NCBI GenBank assembly: GCA_022072445.1
Contig: JAJVHV010000025.1
Location: forward strand, 1 to 57,188
Direction of reading: 5' to 3'
From: Phycisphaerae bacterium
Lineage (GTDB): Bacteria > Planctomycetota > Phycisphaerae > UBA1845 > Fen-1342
DNA: 57,188 nt
Shown here piece after piece: positions 1,578-37,152 of the stretch. The position numbers and the translations under genes were made by a program. Position 1 is the first letter of the stretch. Each line of letters starts with the position of its first letter. The notes beneath the pieces are model-generated. The model saw nothing but the letters and a program-made list of their open reading frames with translations, was not told the DNA's origin and did not search any database.

Positions 1578-4500
1578 TCAGGTAGTTCCGCTCACGGCCA
1601 GTTGGGGCTCCGCAGCGCGCCGGGGTATTCGGCCAAATGCCCGGTACACAGCCACGAAGAAGAGCGGTACGAAAACAGTTGCCAAGAACGTCGCCGTAAC
1701 CACGCCGCCCAGGACGCCGGTCCCGATGGCCACCTGCGCGCCGGCGCCGGCGCCCGCGGCGGTAGCGAGCGGCAGTACGCCGAAACCGAAGGCCAGTGAA
1801 GTCATGACGATCGGACGCAGTCGCAATCGTGAACCCTCCAGCGTGGCTTCGATCAGGCCCATTCCCTCGTGCACTTTCGCCAGGGCGAACTGGACGATCA
1901 GAATGGCGTTCTTGGTTGTCAAGCCGAGAACGGTGAGCAGTCCGATCTGAAAGTAAACGTCGTTGGGCAACCCCTGTAGCGAGGAACCCAGGACGCCGCC
2001 GACGACGCCGAGCGGCAATGCCAGCAGAATCGTGATGGGAACGATCCAGCTCTCGTACAGCGCCGCAAGACAAAGAAAGATCACAATGATCGAGAAAGCG
2101 TAGAGGGTCGGTCCCTGGGCCGTGGCCAAGCGCTCCTGGTAGGAGATCCCGGTCCAGTCGAAACCGATCCCGCGCGGCAGTTGATCGACAAACGCTTCCA
2201 TGGTGTCCATGGCTTCACCGGAGCTGCGTCCGGGGGCGGGTTCCCCCCAGATATTGATCGATGGAAATGCGTTGTACCGCTCCAGCCGCGGAGACCCGAA
2301 GCTCCATCGCCCGGACGCCAGCGTGTCAAACGGGGTCATGAGACTCTGGTCATTGCGCACGTACAACCGGTCCAGATCGCCCGGCAGCATGCGATAGGGC
2401 GCGTCGAGCTGGACGTATACCCGCTTGACTCGTCCGCCCTGAATGAAGTCGTTCACGTAGGCGCTGCCGAATGCTGCTGAAACGGTGTTGTGGATGGCGT
2501 CGATCGGCACACCCATCGCCCCGGCCTTCTCCCAGTCCACGTCGATGCGGTACTCGGATACGTCCTCCAGCCCGTTCGGGCGGACGCGCGTCAGACCGGG
2601 ATCGGCGGCGGCAAGCTGAAGCAACTGGTTGCGGGCCGCCATTAGCGCGTCGTGTCCTAGCCCACCGCGATCCTGTAACTGGAAGTCGAATCCCCCGGCT
2701 TGCCCCAACTCAAGAACGGCTGGAGGCGGGAACGCGAACACCCGCGCCTCGCGGATCCTCGAGAACTCGGCCATGGCGCGACCGACAATCGCATTCACCT
2801 TCAGTTCCGGGCGATCCCGGATCTCCCAGTCCTTGAGCTTGACGAAGGCCATGCCGGCATTTTGTGCGACGCCGGAAAAACTCCGGCCCGAGAGGGTGAG
2901 GCAGGAGGCGACCGCCTCTTTTTCTTCGATCAGGAAGTAGTCGCGGACCTTGCTCATCACCTCGTCGGTCTGCTCCAGGGTCGCTCCCTCCGGCAGCCGC
3001 GCCTGGACGAACATAATTCCCTGATCCTCTTCCGGGAGGTATGCCGTGGGCATGCGCATGAACAAATAGCCCATCGCCGCGACGATCAGCAGATAGGCGA
3101 CGGCGAAACGCAGCTTGCGAGACAGCGCGTAGCCCACGACCTTCAGGTACAGGTCTCTGCACCAGAAGAAGATCCGGTCGAACCAGTGGAAAAAGGGCCG
3201 CAGGAAGCGCGCGCCTGTCTCGGCCGCTTCGTGCCCCTTGGGCACGGGCTTGAGCAGTGAGGCGCAAAGAACCGGCGTCAGGATAAGAGCGACGACGACG
3301 GACAGCAGCATGGCGGCAATGAGGGTTACGGAGAACTGGCGGTAGATGACCCCGGTCGAGCCGCTGAAGAAGGCCATCGGCCCGAACACCGCCGACAACA
3401 CCACGCCGATTCCGATTAGCGCGCTGGTGATCTCGCCCATGGACTTCCGCGTCGCCTCGCGGGGCGGAAGCCCTTCCTCGCTCATGACCCGTTCCACGTT
3501 TTCGACGACCACGATGGCGTCATCGACGAGCAGGCCGATCGCCAACACCATCGCGAACATGGTCAGCATGTTGATCGAGAAGCCGAACAGCCCCAGGGCT
3601 GCGAATGTCCCCAGGACGACGACCGGCACGGCGATCGTCGGAATCAGGGTGGCCCGCATGTTGCCGAGGAAAAGATACATCACCAGAAAGACTAGCACGA
3701 TGGCTTCGAGCAGCGTCTTGACCACCTCTTCGATGGCGACCTTCACAAATGGGGTCGTGTCGTAGGGATAGATCTCTTTCATGCCCGGCGGAAAGTAGCG
3801 GGCCAGCTCGCCCATCTTGGCCTTGACCGCATCCGCGGTCTCGAGGGAGTTCGCTCCGGGCACCTGCCGAACCGCCAGGGCTGCTGAAGGACGCCCGTTG
3901 AAACGCGTCCGGCTGCCGTAGCGCTCGGTGCCCAACTCGGTTCGCCCCACGTCCTGGACGCGCACGATCGAACCATCCGGATTGGTGCGCAGCGGAATCG
4001 CCGCGAACTCCTCCGGAGTCTCAAGCAGGTTCTGGACGACGATCGAGGCGTTCAGCCTCTGACCCTCCATGGCCGGTGCTCCGCCGAACTGGCCGGCGGA
4101 GACTTCCACGTTGTAATTCCGCAACGCCGCGATCACGTCCTCGATCACCAGGCCGTAGGCCGTCAGCTTGTCTGGATCGAGCCAGATCCGCATGGCATAT
4201 TGCGTGCTGAAGACCTGCACCTCTCCTACGCCCGGCACCCGGGCGAGCACGTTCTCCACATTGGCCTGGGCATAGTCCGCCAGGTCGATGTCGTCCATGC
4301 TTCCGTCTTCCGAAACCAGCCCGACGATGATCAGCCAGTTCCGCGTGGATTTGCTGACCGTGATGCCCTGGCGCTGCACCACGTCGGGTAGACTCGCCAT
4401 GGCAAGCTGAAGCTTGTTCTGGACCTCGGCCCAGGCTAGGTCCGGATCGGTGCCCGCTTCGAACGTGAGTTCCAGCCGGCCTGACCCGGAAGAGTCGCTC

Positions 4501-4748
4501 GTGGCGGACATGTACAGCAGCCGGTTCAGGCCGGTCATCTTCTGTTCAATGATCTGGACCACGCTGTTTTCGACGGTCTCAGCCGAAGCGCCGGGGTAGA
4601 AGGCATCGATGGCGATCGAAGGCGGGGCGATGGGCGGGTACTGCGATATCGGCAAGCTGTAGATCGCCAAGACCCCGGCGAGCATGATGACAATGGCGAT
4701 CACCCAGGCGAAAACCGGGCGCTCTAGAAAGAAGTTGGATAACATCAC
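1578..4748 (-). CDS. RND efflux transporter, HAE1 (AcrB/MexB) type
   Basis: 1056 residues, the usual size of a hydrophobe/amphiphile RND pump. It is an inner-membrane homotrimer that uses the proton gradient to push drugs or lipophiles through an outer-membrane channel. The N-terminus (NFFLERPVFAWVIAIVIM) is the typical first membrane helix. The proton-relay aspartates appear as LLVDDAIVVVEN (Asp409-Asp410) and the partner lysine as LTTKNAILIV (Lys946). It overlaps the adaptor gene by four bases (ATGA). With the TetR, outer-membrane factor and adaptor upstream it forms a complete tripartite system. Substrates cannot be read from sequence. Confidence 0.97.
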   Translation of the reverse strand: MMLSNFFLERPVFAWVIAIVIMLAGVLAIYSLPISQYPPIAPPSIAIDAFYPGASAETVENSVVQIIEQKMTGLNRLLYMSATSDSSGSGRLELTFEAGTDPDLAWAEVQNKLQLAMASLPDVVQRQGITVSKSTRNWLIIVGLVSEDGSMDDIDLADYAQANVENVLARVPGVGEVQVFSTQYAMRIWLDPDKLTAYGLVIEDVIAALRNYNVEVSAGQFGGAPAMEGQRLNASIVVQNLLETPEEFAAIPLRTNPDGSIVRVQDVGRTELGTERYGSRTRFNGRPSAALAVRQVPGANSLETADAVKAKMGELARYFPPGMKEIYPYDTTPFVKVAIEEVVKTLLEAIVLVFLVMYLFLGNMRATLIPTIAVPVVVLGTFAALGLFGFSINMLTMFAMVLAIGLLVDDAIVVVENVERVMSEEGLPPREATRKSMGEITSALIGIGVVLSAVFGPMAFFSGSTGVIYRQFSVTLIAAMLLSVVVALILTPVLCASLLKPVPKGHEAAETGARFLRPFFHWFDRIFFWCRDLYLKVVGYALSRKLRFAVAYLLIVAAMGYLFMRMPTAYLPEEDQGIMFVQARLPEGATLEQTDEVMSKVRDYFLIEEKEAVASCLTLSGRSFSGVAQNAGMAFVKLKDWEIRDRPELKVNAIVGRAMAEFSRIREARVFAFPPPAVLELGQAGGFDFQLQDRGGLGHDALMAARNQLLQLAAADPGLTRVRPNGLEDVSEYRIDVDWEKAGAMGVPIDAIHNTVSAAFGSAYVNDFIQGGRVKRVYVQLDAPYRMLPGDLDRLYVRNDQSLMTPFDTLASGRWSFGSPRLERYNAFPSINIWGEPAPGRSSGEAMDTMEAFVDQLPRGIGFDWTGISYQERLATAQGPTLYAFSIIVIFLCLAALYESWIVPITILLALPLGVVGGVLGSSLQGLPNDVYFQIGLLTVLGLTTKNAILIVQFALAKVHEGMGLIEATLEGSRLRLRPIVMTSLAFGFGVLPLATAAGAGAGAQVAIGTGVLGGVVTATFLATVFVPLFFVAVYRAFGRIPRRAAEPQLAVSGTT

Positions 4749-5956
4749 GGCGTTCCTTGATTCGACCTCGCCACGACTTCCTGCGCCCGATCGCCCTGCG
4801 CGCCGGGCGTCCGACTCTCCGCCGAAACGACTTTGACATCGGCGCCCGGCCGCACATTCTGCAAGCCTTCAACAATCAGCCGATCCCCCACCGCCAGGCC
4901 CGAATCGACCAGCCACCTGCGGCCCAGGGCTCGATTCAGCACGAGCATCCGCTGCTCGACCTTGCCGCCGTCGTCGACCACCAGCGCAATCGCCTCTCCC
5001 TTGGGGTTGCGGCTGACGCCCTCCTGCGGAACCAGGATCGCCTCCTCAACGACCCCCTCCTGGACGACAGCTCGCACGAACATGCCCGGCAAGAGAACAT
5101 GATCCGGATTCGGCACGGTGATGCGCAGGCCGAACGACCCGGTGGTGGGATCCACCTGTACGTCGCGGAACTGGAGCGTTCCCTCCAAGGGATAGGCCGT
5201 CCCTTCTTCGAGGACGACCCGCACGGCACGGCCGCCCTCCGCCTTGAGTCGCCCGGTTTCCAAGCTGCGGCTCAGTTGAAGAAGCTGCTTGGACGACTGG
5301 GGCACATCGACGTAAACAGGGTCGAACTGGTGTATCGTCGCGAGCGCGGCGGGCTGGTCGGCCGTTACCAGGGCGCCGGCCGTCACCTTGGACTTGCCGA
5401 TGCGCCCGGATATGGGGGCTGTTATCCGCGTATAGGACAGGTCGATACGGGCACTTTCCACCTCCGCCCTGCGCAAAGCGATCGTTGCCTCGGCCTGCTG
5501 TACGCCGGCCAACGCGTCATCGTAGTCCTGCTGGCTCACCGCGTTTTCGGCCAGAGCGCTGCGGTAGCGTTCCAGCCGGGACCGGATTGCGGGCAGTTCA
5601 GCCTCCGCCACGGCGAGTGCCGCCTTGGCGCGATCGTACGTCGCCTGGTAGCGGGCCGGGTCGATCTGGTAAAGCGCGTCGCCCGCCACGACATCCTGCC
5701 CCTCCTCGAACAGCCGCGACTGGATGATGCCGCTGACCTGCGGCCGTACGTCCGCTTCGAGGAATGCAGCGACGCGGCCGGGCAGTTCAGTGGTCAGCGT
5801 CACCGGCTCCGACGATAGGGTGACTACGGCAACCTCGGGCACCGGTTTCCGCGGAGGACCGGCAGCCTGCCCTCGTCCGCAGCCGCCCAGGTTCAGCGCG
5901 ACGGCGGACAGTCCCACGATGGTAATCACGGTGAATGGAGTTCTCTTGTTCTTCAT
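4745..5956 (-). CDS. RND periplasmic adaptor (membrane fusion protein, AcrA/MexA type)
   Basis: 403 residues. A lipoprotein signal (hydrophobic core, lipobox LGGC near residue 26) anchors it to the inner membrane. The order is that of the family: barrel-sandwich half (VAVVTLSSEPV, GRVAAFLEADVRPQVSGII), a coiled-coil hairpin around residues 105-165 (RAKAALAVAEAELPAIRSRL), the second half (DLSYTRITAPISGRIGKSKV), then beta-barrel and membrane-proximal domains. It bridges the pump and the outer-membrane channel. Start and stop both overlap the neighbouring genes by four bases, so translation is coupled. Confidence 0.96.
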   Translation of the reverse strand: MKNKRTPFTVITIVGLSAVALNLGGCGRGQAAGPPRKPVPEVAVVTLSSEPVTLTTELPGRVAAFLEADVRPQVSGIIQSRLFEEGQDVVAGDALYQIDPARYQATYDRAKAALAVAEAELPAIRSRLERYRSALAENAVSQQDYDDALAGVQQAEATIALRRAEVESARIDLSYTRITAPISGRIGKSKVTAGALVTADQPAALATIHQFDPVYVDVPQSSKQLLQLSRSLETGRLKAEGGRAVRVVLEEGTAYPLEGTLQFRDVQVDPTTGSFGLRITVPNPDHVLLPGMFVRAVVQEGVVEEAILVPQEGVSRNPKGEAIALVVDDGGKVEQRMLVLNRALGRRWLVDSGLAVGDRLIVEGLQNVRPGADVKVVSAESRTPGAQGDRAQEVVARSNQGTP

Positions 5957-7830
5957 CCAGGGTTACTCCCAGGTTCTTTTTCTGTCGTCGGTTCGACACC
6001 GGCCGGAGGCGCGTCCGGTTTCTCGGCGTCCGACGGTTCCTCCCTGTCACCTTCCGGCGCTCCTTCCCATGGCGGGGATTCCCTGCCGCCGGAAAAGAAA
6101 TAGCCAACCGGGTTTGAAAGCGCGCCGGACGGCCTGTCCAGGTATTCCGCCTGCGGCATGGCCTCCGGGGACCAACCGCCGCCGAGCGCCTTGTAGACGG
6201 CCACAAGGTTGACCACGACCTGGCCACGGCTCTGGGCGAGAGCGTCTTCCAGGACCACCAGCGACCGTTGGGCGTCGAGCACGCGCTGGAAATCGGTCAG
6301 ACCATCCCGGTAGCGCCGCTCGGCGACTTGCGTCGAGCGGCGGGCTGCCTCCACAGCCCGAGCCAGCGCCTCGTCGCGATCCTGTTCGCGCTTGTAGCGG
6401 ACCATGGCCCCTTCGACCTCTTCCAGCGCGAGCAGCACCGTTTGTTCGTACGCGACATAAGCTTGCTGCGCGGCCGCCTCTTCGGCGGCGATCCGGTTCA
6501 GATTCCGCAATCCGTCGAAGATATTCCAGCGCACGGCCGGGCCGAAGCCGTAGGCGATGCTCCGCCCGTCGAACCAGTGATTGAAGTCCGTCGCCTCAAA
6601 CGCGAACGTCCCGGACAGCGTGAATCTCGGATAGAGATCGGCTGTGGCGACGCCAATCTGGGCGAACTGGGCGGCCAGACGCCGTTCTGCGGCGCGGATG
6701 TCCGGTCGCCTGCGCAGAAGCTCGATGGGGGCGCCCACCAAAACCTCCGCAGGCGGCCTCGGGATCGCCCGTTCCGCGGTCAACTCGTTCCACACCGCCG
6801 CTGGCTCCTGGCCGATCAGCACCCCCATGCGGTAGATCGCGAGGGCCAAGGCTGTTTGCAGCACGGGGAGCTCGGCTTCCGTGGTTGCAAGGTTGGTCTC
6901 GGCCTGACGGACGTCGAGTTCGGAGGTCAAGCCGAGATCAAAGCGCGACTGCGTGAGAGACAGCGTCTGTCTCTGAAGCCCTATGTTCCGGACCGTTGCG
7001 TCGACCTGCGCCTGAAGCCTGCGCACGTCGACAAACGTCGTAGCTACCTCAGCCAGCAACGACACGAGGACGCTCCGGTACTCCTCCACGGTCGCAAGCA
7101 AAGCGGCATCGGCCGACTCCACGTTGCGGCGAATGCCGCCGAACACGTCGATTTCCCAGGAGGCGTCAAAGCCGGCTGCGAAAAGGTCCTGCTCGTCGGT
7201 TTGGGGAAGCGTGCTCCGCCCGGGAACCAGGCCGATGAGGCTGTTGGCCAACGTATTGCTCACGCCGGTCGCGCCTGGCAGTGCGGAACTCAAGCCCTGA
7301 TTCAGGGCGCTGCCCGCGAGCCCGCGTGTCACCGAGTCAGCAAAACGCGCCCCCGGACTCGTCGAGCCTGCCGCTGCGCTGCCGAGCGGGCCGTTGGCGC
7401 TCGCTTTCGAGCGCTGATAGCTGCCTCGCCCGGACAGCGTCGGGAGCAGCTCGCCGGCGGCGATACCGCGCATCGCGCGGGCTTCCCGAACGCGCAGGAT
7501 TGCCAGACGCAGATCGCGGTTGTTGTCCGCCGCCCGGCGGATCAGGTCGGAGAGCAACGCATCGTCAAAGACCTGCCACCACGCCTCGACATTCGCTTCT
7601 CCGGCTGCCAGCCCGTCCGTTGTTGACTGATGCCATTCGCGGGAAAGCTCGATTTGCGGTGCACGATAGTTTGGTCCGACCGCACATCCCGACAGGAGCA
7701 GAGCCAATGCCAGAGACCCGACGCCGAGCCAGTGCGGCATGTTCCGTCCGCCCCCCTGAGATTTCGGGGCATGAGGAAAGGGGAGGCGCGCCGGGCCTCC
7801 AACCCGCGCTACGGCCAGCGAAACGCTCAT
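5953..7830 (-). CDS. outer-membrane factor lipoprotein (OprM/NodT family)
   Basis: 625 residues from the ATG at 7830, longer than the usual 460-500. The TolC-type outer-membrane efflux repeats are clear (e.g. AGFDASWEIDVFGGIRRNV, LQTALALAIYRMGVLIGQEP, RYRDGLTDFQRVLDAQRSL). The start at 7830 overlaps the tetR stop (ATGA) and has GGAGGTG close upstream; a later ATG at 7740 begins the lipoprotein signal proper (MPHWLGVGSLALALLLSGC), leaving 30 extra residues before it. Either the longer start gives an extended n-region, or translation re-initiates at 7740. The C-terminal ~80 residues after the conserved domain are proline- and acid-rich and absent from typical members. Confidence 0.94.
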   Translation of the reverse strand: MSVSLAVARVGGPARLPFPHAPKSQGGGRNMPHWLGVGSLALALLLSGCAVGPNYRAPQIELSREWHQSTTDGLAAGEANVEAWWQVFDDALLSDLIRRAADNNRDLRLAILRVREARAMRGIAAGELLPTLSGRGSYQRSKASANGPLGSAAAGSTSPGARFADSVTRGLAGSALNQGLSSALPGATGVSNTLANSLIGLVPGRSTLPQTDEQDLFAAGFDASWEIDVFGGIRRNVESADAALLATVEEYRSVLVSLLAEVATTFVDVRRLQAQVDATVRNIGLQRQTLSLTQSRFDLGLTSELDVRQAETNLATTEAELPVLQTALALAIYRMGVLIGQEPAAVWNELTAERAIPRPPAEVLVGAPIELLRRRPDIRAAERRLAAQFAQIGVATADLYPRFTLSGTFAFEATDFNHWFDGRSIAYGFGPAVRWNIFDGLRNLNRIAAEEAAAQQAYVAYEQTVLLALEEVEGAMVRYKREQDRDEALARAVEAARRSTQVAERRYRDGLTDFQRVLDAQRSLVVLEDALAQSRGQVVVNLVAVYKALGGGWSPEAMPQAEYLDRPSGALSNPVGYFFSGGRESPPWEGAPEGDREEPSDAEKPDAPPAGVEPTTEKEPGSNPG

Positions 7831-8504
7831 GAGGTGCACCTCCGACCTGCGGCGCGCGAGTATCTCGCCCGTTCGGGCTCGCTGAGCATCCCGAGAAAAA
7901 GCGTTTTCAGAATGCGGTGTGCCTGGAGTTCCATCGGCTCCCGCCGCCCGGCGAAGTGATTTGTGAAAATCGTGCCGTACAGGAGGTCGCTGATCGTCTC
8001 GGTGAACTCCTCGACCGGTGCCTCGCGCACACGGCCGGTAGCGACCAGGCCGCGGAACAGCTCATGCCAGCGCCCGACGTTCGCGTCGCGATGCTCGAAG
8101 TAGGTGGGCTTCTTGCGGTCCTTGAACGCGGCCCGCTCCAGGATCAGCAGCTCGACGCACTCGGGGTGGGCGTCGAAGTATGCCAAGTACGCATGAACCG
8201 CAGCGGCAATCTGCTCCAGCGGGTCCGCCTGTTCGTCGACGACGGCGTGTACGGCCTCGCGGAGCCTGTGCATGGCCTGATCCGCCGCTGCCAGAAACAA
8301 GGCTTCCTTCGTCTCGAAGTAGCGATACACGGTTCCCTTGCCGACGCCCAGCTCGTCGGCGACCGCCTGCACGTCCGTGCGGGCAAAGCCGTCGGCCGCG
8401 AACAGCCGGGTAGCCGCCTCCAGGATTTCCTCGCGGCGGCGGGCAATCAGTTCGTCATCCCTCGGTCGCCCGCGGGGGCATTTCCGGGCAGCAGGCACTG
8501 GCAA
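7827..8504 (-). CDS. TetR-family repressor of the efflux operon
   Basis: 225 residues. The N-terminal helix-turn-helix (about residues 25-65: AATRLFAADGFARTDVQAVA then LGVGKGTVYRYFETKEALF) is diagnostic of TetR regulators; the C-terminal ligand domain is divergent. The start is TTG at 8504 with GGAG 5-6 bases upstream. It is the first gene of the operon and its stop overlaps the next start, so pump components and repressor are made together, which implies autoregulation. The likely operator is the perfect palindrome at 8525-8542. The ligand is probably a pump substrate (inference from similar tetR-led RND operons). Confidence 0.93.
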   Translation of the reverse strand: MPVPAARKCPRGRPRDDELIARRREEILEAATRLFAADGFARTDVQAVADELGVGKGTVYRYFETKEALFLAAADQAMHRLREAVHAVVDEQADPLEQIAAAVHAYLAYFDAHPECVELLILERAAFKDRKKPTYFEHRDANVGRWHELFRGLVATGRVREAPVEEFTETISDLLYGTIFTNHFAGRREPMELQAHRILKTLFLGMLSEPERARYSRAAGRRCTS

Positions 8505-9506: not shown

Positions 9507-10586
9507 TCACGGTAAGTTGAGATTCGTCATCTCGACGTAGGCGTGGCCGCTGACGGGCTCGGCGTCTCGCGTCCCTGCGACCCAGCAGAGACCTTCCCAA
9601 TACACGTTCAAGGTGCTCGCGCGCGTATCAAGCTCCTGATCATCCAGCGCGCGGTTGACATTCAGCGCAAGGCCGATTGACGGGATCTCCACCTCCCAGC
9701 GGACGGGATAGGTCGCGCCGCTGTCCGGGCTGGTCCAGAACTCGGCGTTGATGATCGTGAAGTCGTCCGGCTCCAAGACCGCCGTGGTGCCGTCGGGCTC
9801 GCTCAGCGTTCCCTGGTCGAGCGTTGTATCGTCGTCGAGGAAGCGGTAGATCATGATCGCTGTCCCGTCGTCGAGCCGGAGGCTGAACCAGACCCACTTG
9901 AGGAAGGGATTCCGCACGTCGCGGCCCCATTGCCGGTCGAACCACACCTTGCCACTGACCGGCAAGATCTCCTGGCCGTCGCGGAGGTAGCCGGACGCAA
10001 TCATCCGCGGCCGCGAATAGTAGAACGAGCTGCCGACCGTACCGTAATGCACGTAGCCATTCTCACCGTGCAGAACCGGGTCGCCGCCTGGTCCGAGGAC
10101 CAGGTCAAGCTCGTAACTGCCGTCGGGCATGACGCCGCTAATGTGGTCGCGCCCCTCGCCGCCGAGCAGCGTCAGCAGCGGGGTGGTCAGGTGGAACCCC
10201 TGGCTGACCACGGGCTGCGGCAGAATCGTGCGCACCTGGTCGTAGGTGAATGACTGGTCAGCCACGTCGGTGATCGCGAAGTGCGCCACGTGCCCGTCGA
10301 TCGGCGCGACGATTGGCAAGCCCTCGGGCGTGCCGACGAAAACGCCCGGTGCGGCATGGAAGATGACCGCCTCGAAGCCGTACTCGCGCCCGTCCTCAGC
10401 AGCCAGCAGCCCGGTGTAGTACCACCACTCCGCGCTGTAGCACTGCCGCGATTCGTCCTCCGGGAGGAGGACGGCGGGCGACTCGGTCAGCCATTCGTAG
10501 CAGGCGTCGGGACACGGACAGCCGCCCAGTATGCCAGCCAGCACTCCGTACACGACGACCGCCCCCACCCTCGCCGAGCCCGCCAT
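9507..10586 (-). CDS. AttH/CrtC-like lipocalin-fold lipoprotein
   Basis: 359 residues. The N-terminal signal has a lipobox (ILGGC, Cys near residue 23). The body matches the 'predicted secreted hydrolase' AttH/CrtC-like family: YSAEWWYYTG near residue 50, FHLTTPLLTLLGG, a central WFDRQWG motif, and the closing pattern YWEGLCWVAG...GHAYVEMTN. These two-domain lipocalin-like proteins handle lipids or carotenoid-like substrates; the exact reaction here is unknown. It follows the TetR gene after two bases with GGAG upstream of its ATG, so the pair is an operon and the lipoprotein is a likely TetR target. Confidence 0.85.
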   Translation of the reverse strand: MAGSARVGAVVVYGVLAGILGGCPCPDACYEWLTESPAVLLPEDESRQCYSAEWWYYTGLLAAEDGREYGFEAVIFHAAPGVFVGTPEGLPIVAPIDGHVAHFAITDVADQSFTYDQVRTILPQPVVSQGFHLTTPLLTLLGGEGRDHISGVMPDGSYELDLVLGPGGDPVLHGENGYVHYGTVGSSFYYSRPRMIASGYLRDGQEILPVSGKVWFDRQWGRDVRNPFLKWVWFSLRLDDGTAIMIYRFLDDDTTLDQGTLSEPDGTTAVLEPDDFTIINAEFWTSPDSGATYPVRWEVEIPSIGLALNVNRALDDQELDTRASTLNVYWEGLCWVAGTRDAEPVSGHAYVEMTNLNLP

Positions 10587-10588
10587 AA

Positions 10589-11209
10589 CTACTCCGCCTT
10601 CAGGCTGACCCGCCCGAAGAATATCTTCTTGGTCAACGCCGCCATCTCGTCGGCCGAAAAATCGTCCGGCCGCTCGACCAGGGCGGGCAGGAACGCGTTG
10701 CTAATCCCTTCCAGTCCCAGCGCGAGCATCTTCGGCTCGACCTCCACGAACAGCATCCTGCGTATGCCGGCGCGGAAGAGAGATTCCAGCCGGTCGAGCA
10801 CCTTTTCGTAAAGAGCGCGCGCAGCGCGATCCAGTCCGACCGTCGGCGCGCACTGCGCCGCGGCGGTCTGGCCGAAGTACAGCCGTGCCGTCGGGATGTG
10901 CCGGACGAACAGGTCCGCCTTGGTCTCGATGTAGCGCTCCAGTTTCTCGATCTCCGAACCGCGCGCGTTGAGGGCCGCCGACAGCGCCGCCTCAAACTCC
11001 CGCACCGTGTCGAGGATCAGGGCACGGTATAGCGCCTGCTTGTCCTCGAAGAGCTTGTAGAGCGTGCCGACGGCGAACTCCGCCCGGTCGGCAATCTCCG
11101 CCATGCTCGTTCGATCGAACCCTTTGCGCGAGAAGAGGTCTTGCGCCGCCGCAAGGATTTCACGGCGGTGCCGCTGCCGCTCCCGCTCCCTGCGAGTCAC
11201 TTTCCCCAT
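10589..11209 (-). CDS. TetR-family regulator
   Basis: 206 residues from the ATG at 11209, chosen because GGAGGTG lies six bases upstream; a start nine codons earlier is in frame. The helix-turn-helix is clear: EILAAAQDLFSRKGFDRTSM then ADRAEFAVGTLYKLFEDKQA. It is transcribed away from the lipoprotein and peptide genes at 11397 and 11700. Between them lies a promoter whose spacer contains a 14-bp palindrome, and a related palindrome occurs at 13278. It therefore probably controls the whole 9.5-14.8 kb cluster (inference). Confidence 0.92.
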   Translation of the reverse strand: MGKVTRRERERQRHRREILAAAQDLFSRKGFDRTSMAEIADRAEFAVGTLYKLFEDKQALYRALILDTVREFEAALSAALNARGSEIEKLERYIETKADLFVRHIPTARLYFGQTAAAQCAPTVGLDRAARALYEKVLDRLESLFRAGIRRMLFVEVEPKMLALGLEGISNAFLPALVERPDDFSADEMAALTKKIFFGRVSLKAE

Positions 11210-11255
11210 CGAGACACCTCCATCACAAGCCAACATGAGCCCGTTGCCGATCCGC

Positions 11256-11285
11256 TTGACAGCCGTGAACCATCATTCATATTAT
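11256..11285 (+). promoter_or_regulatory. near-consensus promoter with operator-like palindrome in its spacer
   Basis: TTGACA (11256-11261), 18 bases, TATTAT (11280-11285): the strongest sigma-70-type promoter seen in the window, firing rightward towards the lipoprotein gene at 11397. Its spacer contains TGAACCATCATTCA (11266-11279), an interrupted palindrome (arms TGAA/TTCA) that shares 11 of 14 bases with the reverse complement of the site at 13278-13291. A bound TetR dimer would block this promoter. Confidence 0.65.
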
Positions 11286-11396
11286 GTATCGGAAGTTCGC
11301 GGCCGTCAAACACTCTCGGCGGCGGAGATGTCGCCGGATGCGGTGGCGATCGCGACGGCGACAAACGACTGCGGGTTGTGCAAGGAGCAGACGGCC

Positions 11397-11627
11397 ATGA
11401 GCATGCGACGGTTTCGTGCTGCGGCGTTGACCATGATGCTCGGCTTCGGTTCGCTTATCTTCCAGAGCTGCCCGTTGACCGGGCTCCTGGACGACTGCTT
11501 CGGCGAAGACACGATATCTAGCTCGGAGTACGACGACCTGAACGCCGTCGAGCGCCTTCTCTACGAAGAGAACTGGTGCGGCCGATACACACGCCGCTCG
11601 GACTTCTTCGGCGACCTGTTCGACTGA
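11397..11627 (+). CDS. small lipoprotein
   Basis: 76 residues. AAGGAG lies 12 bases upstream of the ATG; the frame is open further upstream but no better start is seen. A charged n-region and hydrophobic core end in a lipobox-like FQSC near residue 25, then an acidic mature part (LLDDCFGED, SSSEYDDLNAVERLLYEENW). No family recognised. It is the first gene after the strong promoter at 11256 and lies in the same direction as the 39-residue peptide gene. Confidence 0.65.
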   Translation: MSMRRFRAAALTMMLGFGSLIFQSCPLTGLLDDCFGEDTISSSEYDDLNAVERLLYEENWCGRYTRRSDFFGDLFD

Positions 11628-11699
11628 TGTCGCAGCAGCGACAGCCGTGTGCAGCAGGAATGCGCGTGCGAGCCGAGCCTTTGCCAAAGGAGGATTGTC

Positions 11700-11819
11700 A
11701 TGCTGTTCACCGACTTTTTGAATCAGGTTTTCGGTCTGTTCTCGCAGTTGGCCCAACTGTGGCTGAGCCTCGTCCAGCAGTTCTTCGGCCTGGACCTCAG
11801 CGCTTTCATGACCGGGTGA
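11700..11819 (+). CDS. 39-residue amphipathic peptide
   Basis: The sequence begins MLFTDFLNQVFGLFSQLAQL and has a near-perfect Shine-Dalgarno (AAAGGAGG) at a good distance, which argues strongly for translation. It is one long amphipathic helix rich in Leu, Phe, Gln and Trp with almost no charge, so it probably binds membrane or lipid. It lies 72 bases after the small lipoprotein gene and before the acyltransferase homologue. No family recognised. Confidence 0.6.
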   Translation: MLFTDFLNQVFGLFSQLAQLWLSLVQQFFGLDLSAFMTG

Positions 11820-12035
11820 CTCCCTGCGCCCGCAGGTGGCCGAGTCCGGGGTTGAGCGCGACCGGAAACGGAACCAGGTACGCCGTTCTCCAGGCGGCTA
11901 CGACTCTTGCCGTGGGAGCCTGGTACGGAGGTAGGCGACGGACATTCTTGCGCAAATGCTAGCCTAATTGACGCGGGCGGCTTCTCACTGCCTTGAGAGG
12001 TTTCGCCCGCCCGGCGCTTCGCAAACAAAGCCCTT

Positions 12036-12986
12036 GTGGGCAAACGCGCCATGGGCGTCTCAGCAACCGGTGCCCTGGTCCGCTTCGGCAACGCCTACCG
12101 GCGAGTACTGGCGGCCGTTCTGTGTGCGATCGGCCCGCGTGCGGCGTATTCGCTTTTGGGCGTCCTGGCGCGGCTGCTTTATCGACTGCTCGACCCGCTA
12201 CGCGAACGTAGCGAGGCCCAGTGCCGAGCGGCGTTGGGCGACGAATACGCCGAGCGTGACATCGCCCGCATTGCTGAGCGAGCCTTCGTTCACCGCGCCT
12301 GGAATCTGGCCGACCTGATGCTCGCCGACCGGCTGATTCGCCGCAGCACGTACCACCGCTACGGCGGCCGCATCACCGAGCCCCACCTCGGCATGCTGCG
12401 AGATGCCCAGCGCAGCCGGCGGTCGGTCATCCTCGTGACGGCCTATTACGGTCCATTCGACCTGCTACCGCTGTTCCTCGGCTACAACGGGTTTCGTGTG
12501 GGGGTTGTCTACCGGCCGCATGCCAATCCGGACTTCGATGCGTATCGCCGGAAAATCCGCGCTCGCAGCGGCTGCGAGATGATCCCCGACAGGCAGGCGG
12601 TCAGCCGCCTGCCCCAGATATTAGAGGATGGCGGCATGGTGGCGATTCTCTCCGACCACCATGCCGCCCGGCGCGGTATTCCGGTGACCTTCCTGCGCCT
12701 GGGAACCGCCGCCTCGCGCTCCGTCGGGATACTGGCGACGCGTTACGAGGCGGTGGTTGCCGTAGCGGGCATCCGCCGGTTACATGACGCGTTCCGCTTC
12801 GAGGTTGTCGTAGCCGATCTGTTTGGGCCGAGTGCATGGTACGGCGAAGACGATCCGGCCGTTTATATTACCCAGCGCTACATCAGCGCGCTGGAGAAAA
12901 TTGTTCTCGACGACCCTACGCAATACCTCTGGGCCCATGCCCGCTGGGGCGAGGCTGTCGCTCGCCAGCTCGTGCGCAAGGCCTAG
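12036..12986 (+). CDS. LpxL/HtrB-family lysophospholipid acyltransferase homologue, catalytic His replaced
   Basis: 316 residues from GTG at 12036 (ATG at 12051 also possible). The architecture is that of lipid A late acyltransferases: N-terminal hydrophobic helix, then an acyltransferase domain with YRPHANPDFD and SDHHAARRGIPVTFL corresponding to the substrate-binding motifs, and a closing WAHARW like the family's WxHxRW. The catalytic HX4D motif reads TAYYGPFD here: the His position is Tyr137 and Asp142 is kept. Either the enzyme is inactive or uses another mechanism. Its setting among lipoproteins and TetR points to an envelope lipid function. Confidence 0.85.
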   Translation: MGKRAMGVSATGALVRFGNAYRRVLAAVLCAIGPRAAYSLLGVLARLLYRLLDPLRERSEAQCRAALGDEYAERDIARIAERAFVHRAWNLADLMLADRLIRRSTYHRYGGRITEPHLGMLRDAQRSRRSVILVTAYYGPFDLLPLFLGYNGFRVGVVYRPHANPDFDAYRRKIRARSGCEMIPDRQAVSRLPQILEDGGMVAILSDHHAARRGIPVTFLRLGTAASRSVGILATRYEAVVAVAGIRRLHDAFRFEVVVADLFGPSAWYGEDDPAVYITQRYISALEKIVLDDPTQYLWAHARWGEAVARQLVRKA

Positions 12987-13003
12987 CCCGTGCGTGCCGG
13001 GGG

Positions 13004-13168
13004 TTAGCTGTCGCCTGCAATGTCGATGATCGACAGCGTGAGGCCGATCGCCGCTTCGATGATGTTGCCGGCACTGCCGTCATCGGCCGGCGCCTGCTCT
13101 GCCATGGGAATCCCCATCAGGAACGCGAGCAAACCGGCTGTGCGCCACCGCAAGTTCTTGAACGTCAT
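13004..13168 (-). CDS. small secreted or membrane-anchored protein
   Basis: 54 residues. GAAAGGGG precedes the ATG at a suitable distance. Residues 4-25 (KNLRWRTAGLLAFLMGIPMA) look like a signal peptide or single helix, followed by a short acidic part and a hydrophobic tail (NIIEAAIGLTLSIIDIAG). That tail resembles the C-terminal part of the 56-residue lipoprotein at 14633. The gene is oriented against its neighbours, with the palindromic site at 13278 in its upstream region. No family recognised. Confidence 0.5.
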   Translation of the reverse strand: MTFKNLRWRTAGLLAFLMGIPMAEQAPADDGSAGNIIEAAIGLTLSIIDIAGDS

Positions 13169-13247
13169 TCTCGGCCCCTTTCATCGCTGATCCGAGCTAT
13201 CCTTGAATGCGTACCGCGGCCGCAAGGGGGTTCCCCTTCATGGCCGC

Positions 13248-13291
13248 TTGACCAACGCGAACGCTCAGTCCATACTATGAACGTCGGTTCA
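13248..13291 (+). promoter_or_regulatory. promoter with TGAACGTCGGTTCA palindrome
   Basis: TTGACC (13248-13253) and TACTAT (13273-13278) are 19 bases apart and would drive the zinc-ribbon/hydrolase genes from 13370. Overlapping the -10 is TGAACGTCGGTTCA (13278-13291), an inverted repeat with 5-bp arms around GTCG. Its reverse complement matches the 11266 site at 11 of 14 positions, suggesting one regulator acts at both. The minus-strand peptide gene at 13168 may share it. Confidence 0.5.
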
Positions 13292-13369
13292 CAAGCTGTC
13301 AAGGCCGTTGCCGACTCTCGCGACTGGCCGTGGCGGGATCGACTTATTGCCCGAGCAGGTGGAGGTTAG

Positions 13370-13726
13370 ATGCGCAACCACGCCCCCAAGCGACCGGGCG
13401 CGTCGAACGCAGCGGCGGATACGGACCGTCAGCCCGTCGAGGACAGAAATGAAGCGCTGACCACCGAGCTGGTCGCCGCGGCACTGGAATGCCCGTGGTG
13501 TCACCGCCGATCGACCGGGGCGGTTCTCGAACGCCATTGGCATGACCACCAATTCTGGCAGGTGCGCGCTTGCTCCGAGTGCAGCCGGCTCCTGGTCGCA
13601 ATCACGGAAATGGACGGCGAGAGGATTGTCCATACACACGGCGCCACGCTCAGGCTGTGTCTCTCCGAGCCGCCGTTTCCGCGTGTTTGGCGGCAAGCGC
13701 CACAGCTCGGCAAGGACGGGAAGTGA
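13370..13726 (+). CDS. zinc-ribbon protein
   Basis: 118 residues. GGAGG lies just upstream of the ATG. A four-cysteine ribbon is formed by CPWCH (about residues 43-47) and CSEC (about 69-72); the N-terminal 40 residues are hydrophilic and probably disordered. Its stop overlaps the next ATG (TGATG), so it is translationally coupled to the hydrolase lipoprotein. Function unknown; no DNA-binding domain beyond the ribbon is visible. Confidence 0.7.
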   Translation: MRNHAPKRPGASNAAADTDRQPVEDRNEALTTELVAAALECPWCHRRSTGAVLERHWHDHQFWQVRACSECSRLLVAITEMDGERIVHTHGATLRLCLSEPPFPRVWRQAPQLGKDGK

Positions 13727-14628
13727 TGAGGGCACCTCGAATACGGTTCTGTTGCGCGCTGCTGCCCGCGCTGCTGGTGGTGGGATGCGGGCCGGAGACA
13801 GTGCTGGACGGCCTTTTCCCGCCACCGGCGCAGAACACGATCCTCTTCACGCCGGACGTGCTCGGACTGACGTTCGAGCACGTGGAGTTGCAAGTGGACT
13901 CGCCCGCGCCGCACAACGTCTACGCCTGGTTCATTCCGGCGGAGGGCGCTCCGGGAACTGTGCTTATCCACCACGGCAGCCTCTTCAACCGCAGCGCACT
14001 GTTCGACTACTACATGCTGCTCCACGAGCTGGGCTGGAACGTCTTCGTGTACGATTACCAGGGATTCGGCGAAAGCCGCGAACTACCCGGCCTGGAGTCA
14101 TTGCTCCCGGATTCAGACGTGGCTCTTGCGTACGTGCAGCAGCGGCCGGGCGGAGCCGGACGGCCGATCGTCCTGTTTGGCATCTCGGTTGGAACGTTGC
14201 CGACGCTGGCCCAGGCGGCGCGCAACCCCGAAGGCGTCGTCGGTGTGATCCTCCAGGGCAGCTTCGTCCCCGACCTGTTACCGCGCAAATCGTTCTTGCT
14301 GGCCGGCGTCGTGCCGTTGCCCGAGGTAATCGCCCGGTTACCGCAGGAGCTCGACCCGTACGGAAACATCGGGCTGATCACGCTGCCGAAGCTTTTCCTC
14401 CAGTCGCCACAGGACCTGACGACGCCGATCGAAGGCGCCCACCGGTTATTCGAGCTGGCGAGCGAGCCCAAGCGGTTCGTGGAGATTTTCGGCGGCCACG
14501 CGCTGCCCCCCGTGCTCGACCCGAGATACCGCCAACATGTAGCGGATTTTCTGGACGAGGTGAAGGCTGGCTGGACCTTCGCGGAGACATCGGTTCATTT
14601 GTTGGTGAGCGATCTGAACGAGGAGTGA
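13726..14628 (+). CDS. alpha/beta-hydrolase lipoprotein
   Basis: 300 residues. A signal peptide ends in the lipobox VVGC (Cys21). The serine-hydrolase fold is clear: oxyanion strand VLIHHGS, YDYQGFGESR, nucleophile elbow GISVGT (Ser154), acid in SPQDLTTP (Asp230) and base in GGHALPP (His258). The signal places it facing the periplasm at a membrane. It probably acts on a lipid, ester or peptide; the substrate is not predictable. It is coupled to the upstream zinc-ribbon gene and followed four bases later by a small lipoprotein. Confidence 0.88.
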   Translation: MRAPRIRFCCALLPALLVVGCGPETVLDGLFPPPAQNTILFTPDVLGLTFEHVELQVDSPAPHNVYAWFIPAEGAPGTVLIHHGSLFNRSALFDYYMLLHELGWNVFVYDYQGFGESRELPGLESLLPDSDVALAYVQQRPGGAGRPIVLFGISVGTLPTLAQAARNPEGVVGVILQGSFVPDLLPRKSFLLAGVVPLPEVIARLPQELDPYGNIGLITLPKLFLQSPQDLTTPIEGAHRLFELASEPKRFVEIFGGHALPPVLDPRYRQHVADFLDEVKAGWTFAETSVHLLVSDLNEE

Positions 14629-14632
14629 GTCC

Positions 14633-14803
14633 ATGCGTGTACGTAAATGGCGGCGCCACGTTGCGCTCCTGACAAGCGGTGCCCTGCTGCTGCAAGCGCA
14701 GGGCTGCTTGGTAGACACCAATGTCCTGATCGCCGACCTGACCCAGGCGGTGCTGACTGTGTTGCTGGACACGCTGGTTGGCGCGCTGTCGCAGGGGATC
14801 TGA
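14633..14803 (+). CDS. small lipoprotein
   Basis: 56 residues. GAGGAG precedes the ATG. Basic n-region (RVRKWRRH), hydrophobic core and lipobox-like AQGC (Cys25) are followed by a 31-residue hydrophobic/amphipathic tail (LIADLTQAVLTVLLDTLVGA). It is the last gene of the 13370 operon and of the cluster; the prophage begins just beyond. No family recognised. Confidence 0.6.
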   Translation: MRVRKWRRHVALLTSGALLLQAQGCLVDTNVLIADLTQAVLTVLLDTLVGALSQGI

Positions 14804-22682: not shown

Positions 22683-24674
22683 TCACGCGAACGTCAGTCC
22701 GCCCGTAACCGCCGCATCGGCCAGGCGCTTCGTGTGCTTGGCGATCTGCTCGGTGTTCCGCGCGGTGCGCTCCTCGGCGTCGCCGCCGAGGCCGAGCAGC
22801 GCGGCCGGGTTGAACGTGCCCGTGACGCTGATTTTTCCGGCCAGGACGTCGGCGATGCCGGCGAGCTGGTCCTTCAGGTCGCCGGGCAGCTTGGGCTTGC
22901 CGGGTGGGGCTTTCTCGGTCTCGGCCTGCTCGCGCTTGCGCTTCGCTTCCGCCAGCGCTTCGTCCAGCGCCTTGCGGGCCTCGGCGAGCTGGCGCTTCGT
23001 CTCGGCGATCTTCGCGTCGGTGTCGGAGTCCAGCGCCCGCTGCGCTTCCTCGAACTGCCGGCCGATCTCGGCGAGTGTGGCCTCGTTCACGGCGGCCGAC
23101 TGCTCGCGCTCGCTCTGCCGTCTCTGCTCGCGCTCCGTCAGCGCGCCGGTGCGGCGGCGCTCGATCTCGGCCGCGCCCTCGGCGAACTCCTGGTCGGTCA
23201 TCTGCTTGGCCGCCGCGGCCTGCTCATCGGTGAGCTGGCCGAAGAGGTTCATCAGGTCGAGCCAGCGCTTCGTCAGCCAGTTCTGGATGATGCCCCACGC
23301 CTGGCGCAGGTCAGATGTGAAGTTCGTCCAGGTCTTCGAGAGGAACGCGGTGGTCTCGATCCAGGCGACCTCGAGCGCGTGGAAGACCTGCTGCGCGGCC
23401 GCCAGCGCGCCGAACCACATGGCCTGGGCCGTGCCGATGAAGAAGCGCTTGGCCTCCAGCCACGCCCGATTCAGCGCATCGACGCCCTGCTGCCACGCTA
23501 ACTTCAGTGCCAGCCAGAGGATCTGTGCCGCGAGGGTGATGTCGCCGGCCGCCAGCGCGTCGGAGATGCCGCCTACTACCTTATATATGGCGTCGCGCAG
23601 CCAGCGGAACTGTTCGCCCAGCCAAGCCAAGGCGTCGCCGCCGGCGCCGGTGTAGACCACGATCGCCGCGCCCAGGCCGGCCACGGCGGTAATCGCCAGG
23701 CCGATCGGCGAGACCAGCGCGGCGATGGCGCTGCCGATGATGCCCAGCGCGGTGCCGACGCCGGACACGATCGTGGCCAGTCCGCCCAGCGCCGCGCCGA
23801 GCGCGGATGCGGCCACGCCGAGCGTAATGAGCGCTGCCCCCGCGGCCGCCACGCCCGCGGCGACCTGGAACACCGTGACAACCAGCGCCTTGTTCTCCTT
23901 GACCCAGGTCATGAACGCCACGACCGCGCGCGTGACCTTGTTGGCCAGCTCGGTAACCGTCGGCGCCAGCGCCGAGCCGATCGTGAAGACCGCCTGCTTG
24001 AGGACGCGCCAAACGGTGTCGAGCGCATCCGCGAGCACGGCGGCGTCCTTGGCCGCCTGCGTGGAGACCGTCAGCCCCAGTGCGCGGGCCTGCTCCTGGA
24101 ACTTGGCGAGCCCCTTCGCGCCGTCCTGGATCAGCGGCAGCAGACGTGTGCCCGACTTGCCGAAGACCTCCATCGCCAGTGCGGCGCGCAGCGTCGGGTC
24201 GGTGATCCGGCTGATACGGTCGGCAATGAGCTTGAACTGCTGCTCGGGATTGAGGCCCTTCAGGTCGGCGATGGAGAGACCAAGCTGAGTAAGCGCATCC
24301 GCGGCGCTCTTCGATCCGCCGATCGCCTCGGAGATGGTCTTCTGCATCTTGCGGATGCCGGTTTCGAGCGTCTCCATGTCGGCGCCGGCCAGCTCCGCCG
24401 CGAACCCCAGCTCCGAAAGTGTCTCGACGCTTACGCCGGTGCGGGCGGACATCTCGTCCAGGCTGTCGCCCATGTCGGCGAGCGTCTTCGCCGTGCCGAA
24501 CAGCGCCGTCAGCGCCGAAGCGCCGATCGCGCCGAGGCGCGTGCCGATCGAGCGCAGCCCCTCGCCGAAGGCCTGCAAGCGTTTCTGGGCAGCACGCAGG
24601 CCCTTGGTGAGCTTGTCGCTCACGCCCAGTTCGACGAACGCTCGACCTGCGCGGATGCCCTGTGCGGCAGCCAT
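22683..24674 (-). CDS. tail tape measure protein
   Basis: 663 residues. N-terminal coiled-coil start (KLTKGLRAAQKRLQAFGEGL), a TP901-type core (DMGDSLDEMSARTGVSVETL, FGKSGTRLLPLIQDG), a hydrophobic central region around residues 255-350 with several membrane-like helices, and a long charged coiled coil near 540-620. It sets tail length; at the usual ~1.5 angstrom per residue this predicts a tail near 100 nm. It lies between the joining/decoration genes and the tail-tip genes. Confidence 0.93.
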   Translation of the reverse strand: MAAAQGIRAGRAFVELGVSDKLTKGLRAAQKRLQAFGEGLRSIGTRLGAIGASALTALFGTAKTLADMGDSLDEMSARTGVSVETLSELGFAAELAGADMETLETGIRKMQKTISEAIGGSKSAADALTQLGLSIADLKGLNPEQQFKLIADRISRITDPTLRAALAMEVFGKSGTRLLPLIQDGAKGLAKFQEQARALGLTVSTQAAKDAAVLADALDTVWRVLKQAVFTIGSALAPTVTELANKVTRAVVAFMTWVKENKALVVTVFQVAAGVAAAGAALITLGVAASALGAALGGLATIVSGVGTALGIIGSAIAALVSPIGLAITAVAGLGAAIVVYTGAGGDALAWLGEQFRWLRDAIYKVVGGISDALAAGDITLAAQILWLALKLAWQQGVDALNRAWLEAKRFFIGTAQAMWFGALAAAQQVFHALEVAWIETTAFLSKTWTNFTSDLRQAWGIIQNWLTKRWLDLMNLFGQLTDEQAAAAKQMTDQEFAEGAAEIERRRTGALTEREQRRQSEREQSAAVNEATLAEIGRQFEEAQRALDSDTDAKIAETKRQLAEARKALDEALAEAKRKREQAETEKAPPGKPKLPGDLKDQLAGIADVLAGKISVTGTFNPAALLGLGGDAEERTARNTEQIAKHTKRLADAAVTGGLTFA

Positions 24675-34467: not shown

Positions 34468-34653
34468 CTACGCGGCCCGCTCGTAGGTTGTGATTCGCCG
34501 CCCGCAATGCCGGCACTCGCGCCGGCGAATGATCCGCGCTCCCCACCCCCGGCGCGTGTAAACCACGCGGAAGTGCTGGCAGCCGCAGCGAGGGCAGACC
34601 AGCCCCCGTGCATCGGCCGGCTTCAGAACGGGCTGCGGCGTTTGCTGGTTCAT
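34468..34653 (-). CDS. small zinc-ribbon protein
   Basis: 61 residues from the ATG overlapping the terminase stop (ATGA). CPRCGCQ and CRHCGRR, with RRRECRHCGRRITTYE, form a ribbon much like the N-terminal domain of NrdR and of small Ogr-like phage proteins. Probably nucleic acid or nucleotide binding. The 204 bp between its stop and the tRNA hold no supported gene. Confidence 0.7.
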   Translation of the reverse strand: MNQQTPQPVLKPADARGLVCPRCGCQHFRVVYTRRGWGARIIRRRECRHCGRRITTYERAA

Positions 34654-36953: not shown

Positions 36954-37152
36954 GGTTGGACATCTCCCGCACGAGCCAGGCGGCATACTGGACTAGGTTG
37001 ATCGTCCCATCCGCGTTGGCGGGCGCGCCCACGGCGATGTCGGCGCGCAGCATCTCGACCGTGACCACCTGGCCGCCGACGGCCGAAAGCATCCGCGCCG
37101 CGTCCACCACGGACAGCGCCGTCGGGTTCAGCTTGTTCTCCTGACCGTTCAC
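36943..37152 (-). CDS. small terminase-like DNA-binding protein
   Basis: 69 residues from GTG at 37152 with GGGAGG upstream. It is a compact helical protein (ALSVVDAARMLSAVGGQVVT, VEMLRADIAVGAP, INLVQYAAWLVREM) of the size and place of a small terminase subunit DNA-binding domain, directly upstream of the large subunit. The GGCCGCC repeats lie just before it and could be its target. Confidence 0.7.
   Translation of the reverse strand: MNGQENKLNPTALSVVDAARMLSAVGGQVVTVEMLRADIAVGAPANADGTINLVQYAAWLVREMSNRAD

Follow-up and report, generated by a model that had tools for sequence, protein, structure and literature searches.

A 57,188-bp contig from a Phycisphaerae genome carries, at positions 9507 to 14803, nine genes that we read, with a probability of about 0.4, as a small TetR regulon built around a two-part module: a repurposed LpxL-type acyltransferase, here called Y-LpxL, and a dedicated exported peptide, sec54, which would be the client of the enzyme. 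The contig (C29, one of 50 in a genome of 5.25 Mb) is referred to below, in its entirety, as the window. The analysis consists of sequence comparison and prediction, lipoproteins and signal peptides were assigned by eye, and most of the genomes compared are metagenome-assembled, so that absences are soft. All nine open reading frames (ORFs) listed in the initial annotation of the region are present as described there.

An LpxL-family clade with tyrosine in place of the catalytic histidine

The Y-LpxL gene lies on the plus strand, starting from a GTG at 12036 or an ATG at 12051 and ending at 12986. Its product matches the Pfam family Lip_A_acyltrans (PF03279) with an E value of 1.4e-20 and 74.2 bits, against a cutoff of 22.3. 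A search for LpxL-like proteins gave a match in 281 of 298 genomes drawn from the class, and the matches listed fall into two bands of identity, about 26 to 35% and 49 to 75%. We take the lower band to be the housekeeping LpxL. The upper band, among the matches listed, comprises at least 21 genomes including that of the window; 20 are in the window's order, and one (G128) is outside the order, in the same class. In a tree that also includes nine housekeeping sequences, which were chosen by their His motif, a branch supported at 100/100 separates the upper band from the nine. By sequence, then, Y-LpxL is a separate paralogous clade within the LpxL family.

The active site sets this clade apart. 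Tyrosine stands at the catalytic His of the HX4(D/E) motif in all 38 distinct Y-LpxL sequences that cover the site; a 39th is a fragment that stops short of the catalytic positions. Taking equivalence from an alignment of Y-LpxL with LpxM, the sites corresponding to LpxM H122, E127, R159, and D192, whose roles are described in the available text of PMC6286764, are Y, D, R, and D in 38/38. These residues are Y132, D137, R170, and D202 of Y-LpxL, and H157, within RPHAN, is constant as well. That Tyr is fixed while the other catalytic positions are kept speaks for an enzyme that has changed, not decayed. The initial annotation had named this protein an altered LpxL-family acyltransferase, and the separate clade and the invariant His-to-Tyr change make the case stronger than first claimed. 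The genome of the window has a separate housekeeping LpxL gene that keeps the His (TGHFGNYE). LpxB is present too, so lipid A is probably made.

A structure model of Y-LpxL was obtained with high confidence (predicted local distance difference test score [pLDDT], 89.9). Its best matches among solved structures are 5KN7 (E value, 1.2e-11; template modeling score, 0.68) and 5KNK (E value, 5.1e-12), followed by PatA, and Y-LpxL is thus predicted to retain the LPLAT fold. Among 33 named loci with the window's LpxL-like gene or a piece of it, 32 are labeled Phycisphaerae, Phycisphaerales, Phycisphaera, or planctomycetes. The remaining locus, L116, is labeled Alphaproteobacteria; we take that label to be wrong, and its genome is probably G033, which is in the window's order.

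A family of very small peptides

The sec54 gene (13004 to 13168, minus strand) is convergent with Y-LpxL and encodes a 54-amino-acid peptide, predicted to be exported or membrane anchored, with a C-terminal Ser. The 21 family members that we aligned are 51 to 55 amino acids long and share an architecture recognized by eye: the N terminus is basic in most, a hydrophobic helix follows, most then have an AxA-like junction, and the tail is short and acidic, with a net charge of -1 to -6 when it is taken from a fixed cut. Three residues are invariant, A15, G19, and P21, and all of them are in the hydrophobic helix. Most members, again judged by eye, show what resembles the signal-peptide pattern of a basic start, a hydrophobic segment, and a small-x-small cleavage site, but the conserved Gly and Pro in the helix are not needed for it. 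A model of sec54 has two helices at modest confidence (pLDDT, 67).

None of the 21 members matched a Pfam family. NCBIfam returned seven weak families, each with one or two of the 21, at a best E value of 7e-4. The ratio of nonsynonymous to synonymous substitution rates (dN/dS) was 0.06 to 0.09 in six pairs of sequences and 0.14 to 0.43 in five others; it was about 0.25 and 0.4 between the window and two relatives and reached 0.83 in a single pair of close sequences, which have few changes. These ratios indicate that sec54 is a real gene under purifying selection. We considered that sec54 might be a chance ORF or an antisense product of lpxL, and rejected this on the grounds of purifying selection, near-constant length, and presence away from lpxL. 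Judged from its sequences, sec54 is a previously undescribed family of peptides with predicted export.

The last residue of sec54 is Ser in 32 of 33 genes. Interlocked stop codons of sec54 and the enzyme gene might have produced this Ser as a by-product, but that explanation is insufficient, since Ser is also terminal in 21 of the 22 genes free of overlap with the enzyme gene. The terminal Ser codons of the nonoverlapping genes are all AGC or AGT, a pattern that shared descent alone could likewise give.

Co-occurrence of enzyme and peptide

Y-LpxL, counted as present at a match of at least 48% identity, was found in 35 of 114 genomes of the order, and sec54 was matched in 34. Both genes are present in 33 genomes, the enzyme alone in 2, the peptide alone in 1, and neither in 78. 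Put differently, the peptide accompanies the enzyme in 33/35 genomes and occurs in 1/79 of the others (Fisher P = 3.9e-25, with shared ancestry ignored). In the two enzyme-only genomes, the gene lies within 80 bases of a contig end (G063) or is truncated (G100). The one peptide-only genome, G092, is doubtful: its match is weak, contains an internal stop, and is lipoprotein-like. In the same genome, an ORF at 1127 to 1324 of locus L163 resembles a lipoprotein and has a tail like that of sec54, hinting at lipoprotein versions of the sec54 helix.

The two genes are usually neighbors. A peptide gene lies near Y-LpxL in 28 of 33 named loci (the misses are L112, L114, L122, L128, and L129). We listed 31 convergent pairs, some from closely related genomes; in 30 of them the stop codons are at most 200 bp apart or overlap, nine being interlocked by 4 bp, and in the remaining pair the stops are 2,413 bp apart. 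In four genomes (G019, G021, G042, and G054), the enzyme and the peptide are on different contigs and still co-occur. This co-inheritance without linkage argues, at the level of gene content, for a functional tie between Y-LpxL and sec54.

The numbers of the two genes need not match. More than one peptide gene per enzyme was found in G005, G011, and L115, with tails that differ and a shared N terminus. G005, a genome that is 68% complete, yielded a single enzyme together with two peptide genes, of which one is unlinked; in G001, two enzymes are accompanied by three peptide-like genes. Among the ORFs of 24 loci, we saw no third conserved partner with a spread like that of sec54; the neighbors look diverse.

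The idea that the pair is confined to the window's order was dropped, since G128, in the same class, has both genes (L087). A draw of 392 genomes from the phylum returned only the window's own, which is weak evidence of absence because at most 17 first-look candidates per genome were scored in the results shown. We did not find the pair described in the literature, in a search that left out most subscription journals and bioRxiv preprints. Judging from the genomes compared, the pair is order-wide and mostly occurs without the TetR, a pairing that the initial annotation had not recognized.

Paired promoter elements and the TetR layer

In the window, the pair is embedded in a larger set of genes. 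A TetR-family regulator, the proposed repressor of the cluster, is encoded on the minus strand at 10589 to 11236, with an alternative ATG at 11209; its TetR_N domain scores 57 bits against a cutoff of 24 (E value, 1.7e-15). The gene for an AttH/CrtC-like lipoprotein (9507 to 10586, minus strand; CrtC, 5e-28, and Lipocalin_9, 3e-33, both over the cutoff) starts two bases past the tetR stop codon and is therefore probably in the tetR operon. A 76-amino-acid lipoprotein with homologues in the order, lipo76 (11397 to 11627), and an unproven 39-amino-acid amphipathic ORF with a good Shine-Dalgarno sequence (11700 to 11819) precede Y-LpxL on the plus strand. For the 39-amino-acid ORF we found no homologue in the compared loci, and no whole-genome search was made for it. 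Beyond sec54, the plus strand encodes a zinc-ribbon-like protein (CxxC ... CxxC; 13370 to 13726) with subthreshold Pfam matches only, an alpha/beta-hydrolase lipoprotein (13726 to 14628; Hydrolase_4, 2e-12) in which the nucleophile motif GISVG is present and whose start shares one base with the zinc-ribbon stop, and a 56-amino-acid lipoprotein, lipo56 (14633 to 14803). Pfam matches over the cutoff were obtained for four of the nine ORFs, the AttH-like, TetR, LpxL-like, and hydrolase proteins; the four small proteins of 76, 39, 54, and 56 amino acids had none. The likely transcription units, judging from this layout, are tetR-attH, lipo76-(39-amino-acid ORF)-lpxL, sec54 alone, and zinc-ribbon-hydrolase-lipo56, and all four would likely begin at two divergent intergenic regions.

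These two regions hold one shared quasi-palindromic element of 54 to 55 bp, to which we assign no strand. Element 1 (11256 to 11309) is between tetR and lipo76, and element 2 (13248 to 13302) is between sec54 and the zinc-ribbon-hydrolase unit; the two matching symmetrical elements bracket the Y-LpxL/sec54 pair. By eye, each has the form TTGAC ... RTCAA, with a -35-like TTGAC facing each direction, an AT-rich center that could act as a -10 both ways, and GAAC/GTTC-like half-sites between. The initial annotation had proposed that two promoters share a related operator. This holds well: the strict form of the pattern (TTGAC-N4..7-GAAC-N33..36-RTCAA) occurs at these two sites and nowhere else in the 5.25-Mb genome, and a reversed control gave no site. 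A looser form (TTGAC-N43..45-RTCAA) matches exactly the same two sites in the window, with both strands read, and none in 40 simulated windows, with one strand read in each. Both patterns were composed after the sites had been seen, and their weight lies in the fact that no other site of the genome fits.

A scan for half-sites gave a less even picture. Element 2 contains two tandem GAAC..GTYC/GTTC repeats that agree at 16/16 half-site letters, the only site to do so and a score absent from 20 simulated windows. Element 1 agrees at 13/16, a score that each simulated window strand yields about nine times; the half-site scan taken alone therefore supports one site only.

The element extends to relatives. 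Its loose form is present in 10 of 16 intergenic regions around homologous genes, of which two are the window's own, two each are in G026, G016, and G006, and one each is in G007 and G069. It is missing from the other six: the region between sec54 and the hydrolase gene in G069, both regions of G012 (C3), both of L104, and the region upstream of the second TetR in G007. By eye, the G069 region is one base off the element and the G012 sec54 region retains its right half. The shared operator exceeds chance.

A putative palindromic operator thus sits in the TetR's own divergent promoter and recurs at element 2. Because the exact pattern of the two divergent symmetrical elements has no other copy in the genome and the element is found in 10/16 homologous regions, a single TetR probably controls the cluster. 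Control by the TetR, as first proposed for this cluster, has in this way gained good sequence support. That the regulator senses a lipid we infer only; we found no evidence of a ligand.

The cluster in relatives and its surroundings

TetR orthologues with 57 to 71% identity lie beside lpxL or lipo76 in seven genomes (G005, G006, G007, G012, G016, G026, and G069). The genes for TetR, lipo76, the LpxL-like protein, sec54, and the hydrolase are found again in five relatives, in subsets that vary, and all five genes are together only in G069. G016 and G026 are without lipo76, and the set of G006 is split over two contigs. G007 keeps TetR, lipo76, and the hydrolase, of its lpxL only about the first 75 codons remain, and sec54 was not found there; a single deletion could explain both losses. 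In G026, a second, partial 3′ end of lpxL stands directly before sec54 (L032, 8780 to 9034), with other sequence between the copies.

The remaining genes travel less faithfully. Homologues of lipo76 are in 10 of the 114 genomes of the order, the window's included, and adjoin TetR in G006, G007, and G069. Relatives of the AttH-like protein are in 7/114 and of the zinc-ribbon protein in 3/114, one of them weak, in both cases counting the window's own genome; no AttH-like gene was seen beside the TetR orthologues in the loci compared. Among 61 genomes, relatives of the hydrolase have 55 to 59% identity in G006, G007, G016, and G026 and 45% in G040; the G006 copy has an in-frame stop, and the copy in G069 has 58% identity. 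Matches to lipo56 at E values up to 0.1 occur in 58/114 genomes and are nearly all weak. Apart from lipo56 itself, only one match is strong (G040, 71%); it adjoins a homologue of the zinc-ribbon gene and a gene of the TetR family. Lipo56-like small lipoproteins are scattered across the order (L132 to L139), with several mostly weak matches per genome in some, and possibly form a large unannotated class.

The expectation that the neighbors co-occur in other genomes was therefore borne out for TetR, lipo76, the LpxL-like protein, sec54, and the hydrolase, in subsets, and failed for the AttH-like protein, the zinc-ribbon protein, the 39-amino-acid ORF, and the 56-amino-acid lipoprotein. Since these last four are apart from the core in the relatives compared, we rejected the idea of the nine genes as one ancestral system. 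The TetR layer, the hydrolase, the AttH-like protein, and the other small lipoproteins appear to elaborate the pair locally, and the zinc-ribbon gene likewise looks like a local addition.

Left of the cluster is an apparent RND efflux operon (1578 to 8504), its genes named by eye: an inner-membrane pump (1578 to 4748), an adaptor (4745 to 5956), an outer-membrane factor (5953 to 7839), and the operon's own TetR (7827 to 8504), which has a TetR_N match in Pfam. Relatives of the pump and the adaptor are also near the cluster in G026 (L032) and G007 (L033). Patatin-like phospholipase ORFs, again identified by eye, lie near the TetR orthologue at 4710 to 6110 of L032 and 3805 to 4767 of L033. Directly right of the cluster, at about 15096 to 53262 of the window, is a run of mostly minus-strand ORFs that looks prophage-like by eye, with tape-measure-like (22683 to 24674), portal-like (31936 to 33444), and terminase-like (34650 to 36986) genes.

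Discussion

How might such a regulon work? We propose that the TetR would leave its operators, perhaps upon binding a hydrophobic ligand, and that both convergent units and the neighboring lipoproteins would then be turned on together. At the inner membrane, Y-LpxL would accept an acyl donor and then modify sec54, its client, before or during export. The hydrolase and the AttH-like lipoprotein would have been added locally and would act in that same compartment of the envelope. Several peptides per enzyme, with differing tails and a shared N terminus, fit a client relation, and together with the near-constant terminal Ser they incline us to the peptide as client. A more specific version of this proposal is doubtful: a new dedicated lipid-peptide system in which an LpxL-type enzyme swapped His for Tyr, gave up lipid A, and acylates a coevolved exported peptide, perhaps at its C-terminal Ser, to give an envelope lipopeptide, switched as a unit here by the TetR through the paired promoters.

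Several observations weigh against sec54 as a client of Y-LpxL. Known members of the enzyme family act on glycolipids at the cytoplasmic face, and the tail of sec54 is probably exported. Peptide-like second copies in L115 and L166 end in Ala. The TetR is missing from most genomes that bear the pair. The hydrophobic N terminus of sec54 is more conserved than its tail, which suits a membrane subunit at least equally. In the available text of the sources, the His-to-Ala change costs E. coli LpxL about 1,000-fold in activity (PMC6286764), and the catalytic His is essential in VexE (PMC9597891). Y-LpxL may on these grounds be inactive and may have a noncatalytic role.

The conserved hydrophobic helix leans to a different possibility, that Y-LpxL has in sec54 a small subunit or regulator in the membrane, the helix of the peptide staying as a transmembrane segment against the enzyme, with an envelope lipid as the acceptor. 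The invariant A15, G19, and P21, all in the helix and none in the tail, would fit this, as would the near-strict co-occurrence and the two-helix model, modest as its confidence is. However, the genes are convergent rather than operonic, they are on separate contigs in four genomes, and peptides outnumber enzymes in some; nor would a subunit role account for the terminal Ser, which is nearly constant. We regard a subunit as possible, if somewhat less so than a client. It is unlikely that sec54 is a secreted membrane-active peptide, with Y-LpxL, the hydrolase, and the AttH-like proteins adjusting the cell's own envelope to tolerate it. The short, hydrophobic, amphipathic tail after the AxA-like junction in most members, the paralogous peptides with different tails, and the RND efflux genes near the cluster in three genomes agree with this, but the tails are acidic, whereas most antimicrobial peptides are not, and the neighborhood has no conserved gene for a dedicated exporter or for processing.

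The least probable alternative by our estimate treats Y-LpxL as one more late lipid A acyltransferase, ordinary except for a change that its active site tolerates, and the neighboring genes as passengers. The Lip_A_acyltrans match, the LpxM-like predicted fold, and the presence of LpxB are all compatible with an ordinary enzyme, and in VexE a Tyr at the motif's other position is tolerated, according to the available part of PMC9597891. Yet the change in Y-LpxL is at the His itself, a housekeeping LpxL is present in the same genome, and passengers would not co-occur when unlinked.

Compared with the late lipid A acyltransferases LpxL and LpxM (PF03279; Acinetobacter baumannii LpxM, PDB 5KN7), Y-LpxL belongs to the same sequence family, has the same predicted fold, shares R and D at two catalytic positions, and has D for E at a third. 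It differs in the Tyr for the catalytic His, in forming a separate clade, in being extra to the housekeeping LpxL, and in having a peptide partner. Mycobacterial PatA and Salmonella VexE have the LPLAT fold in common with Y-LpxL, and VexE, a repurposed LPLAT protein, also has a Tyr in the motif (PMC9597891, in part). Both keep the His, however, and the Tyr of VexE is at the Asp/Glu position; no partner peptide is described for either in the available text of the sources. Bidirectional bacterial promoters likewise have a pseudosymmetrical element between divergent genes, as described in the available part of PMC12825309. The elements of the window, known from sequence, differ in being overlaid with half-sites of repeats suited to a TetR and in being used twice around a convergent pair. 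In the PEP-CTERM/exosortase system, a short sequence and its dedicated enzyme were reportedly recognized through matching genome profiles, and sec54 and Y-LpxL resemble it as an enzyme and a short sequence tied by such profiles. The sec54 motif is instead the N-terminal helix of a whole small protein, and the enzyme is from an acyltransferase family.

If our reading is true, the pair would illustrate cleanly how a family of lipid A enzymes was repurposed while a change at its catalytic residue became fixed, and how it was tied to very small exported proteins of a new family outside Pfam and NCBIfam. The pair is compact and is found in dozens of genomes. It could reveal how LPLAT enzymes come to use another acceptor or to work with peptides as partners, and it enlarges the scant knowledge of planctomycete envelopes.

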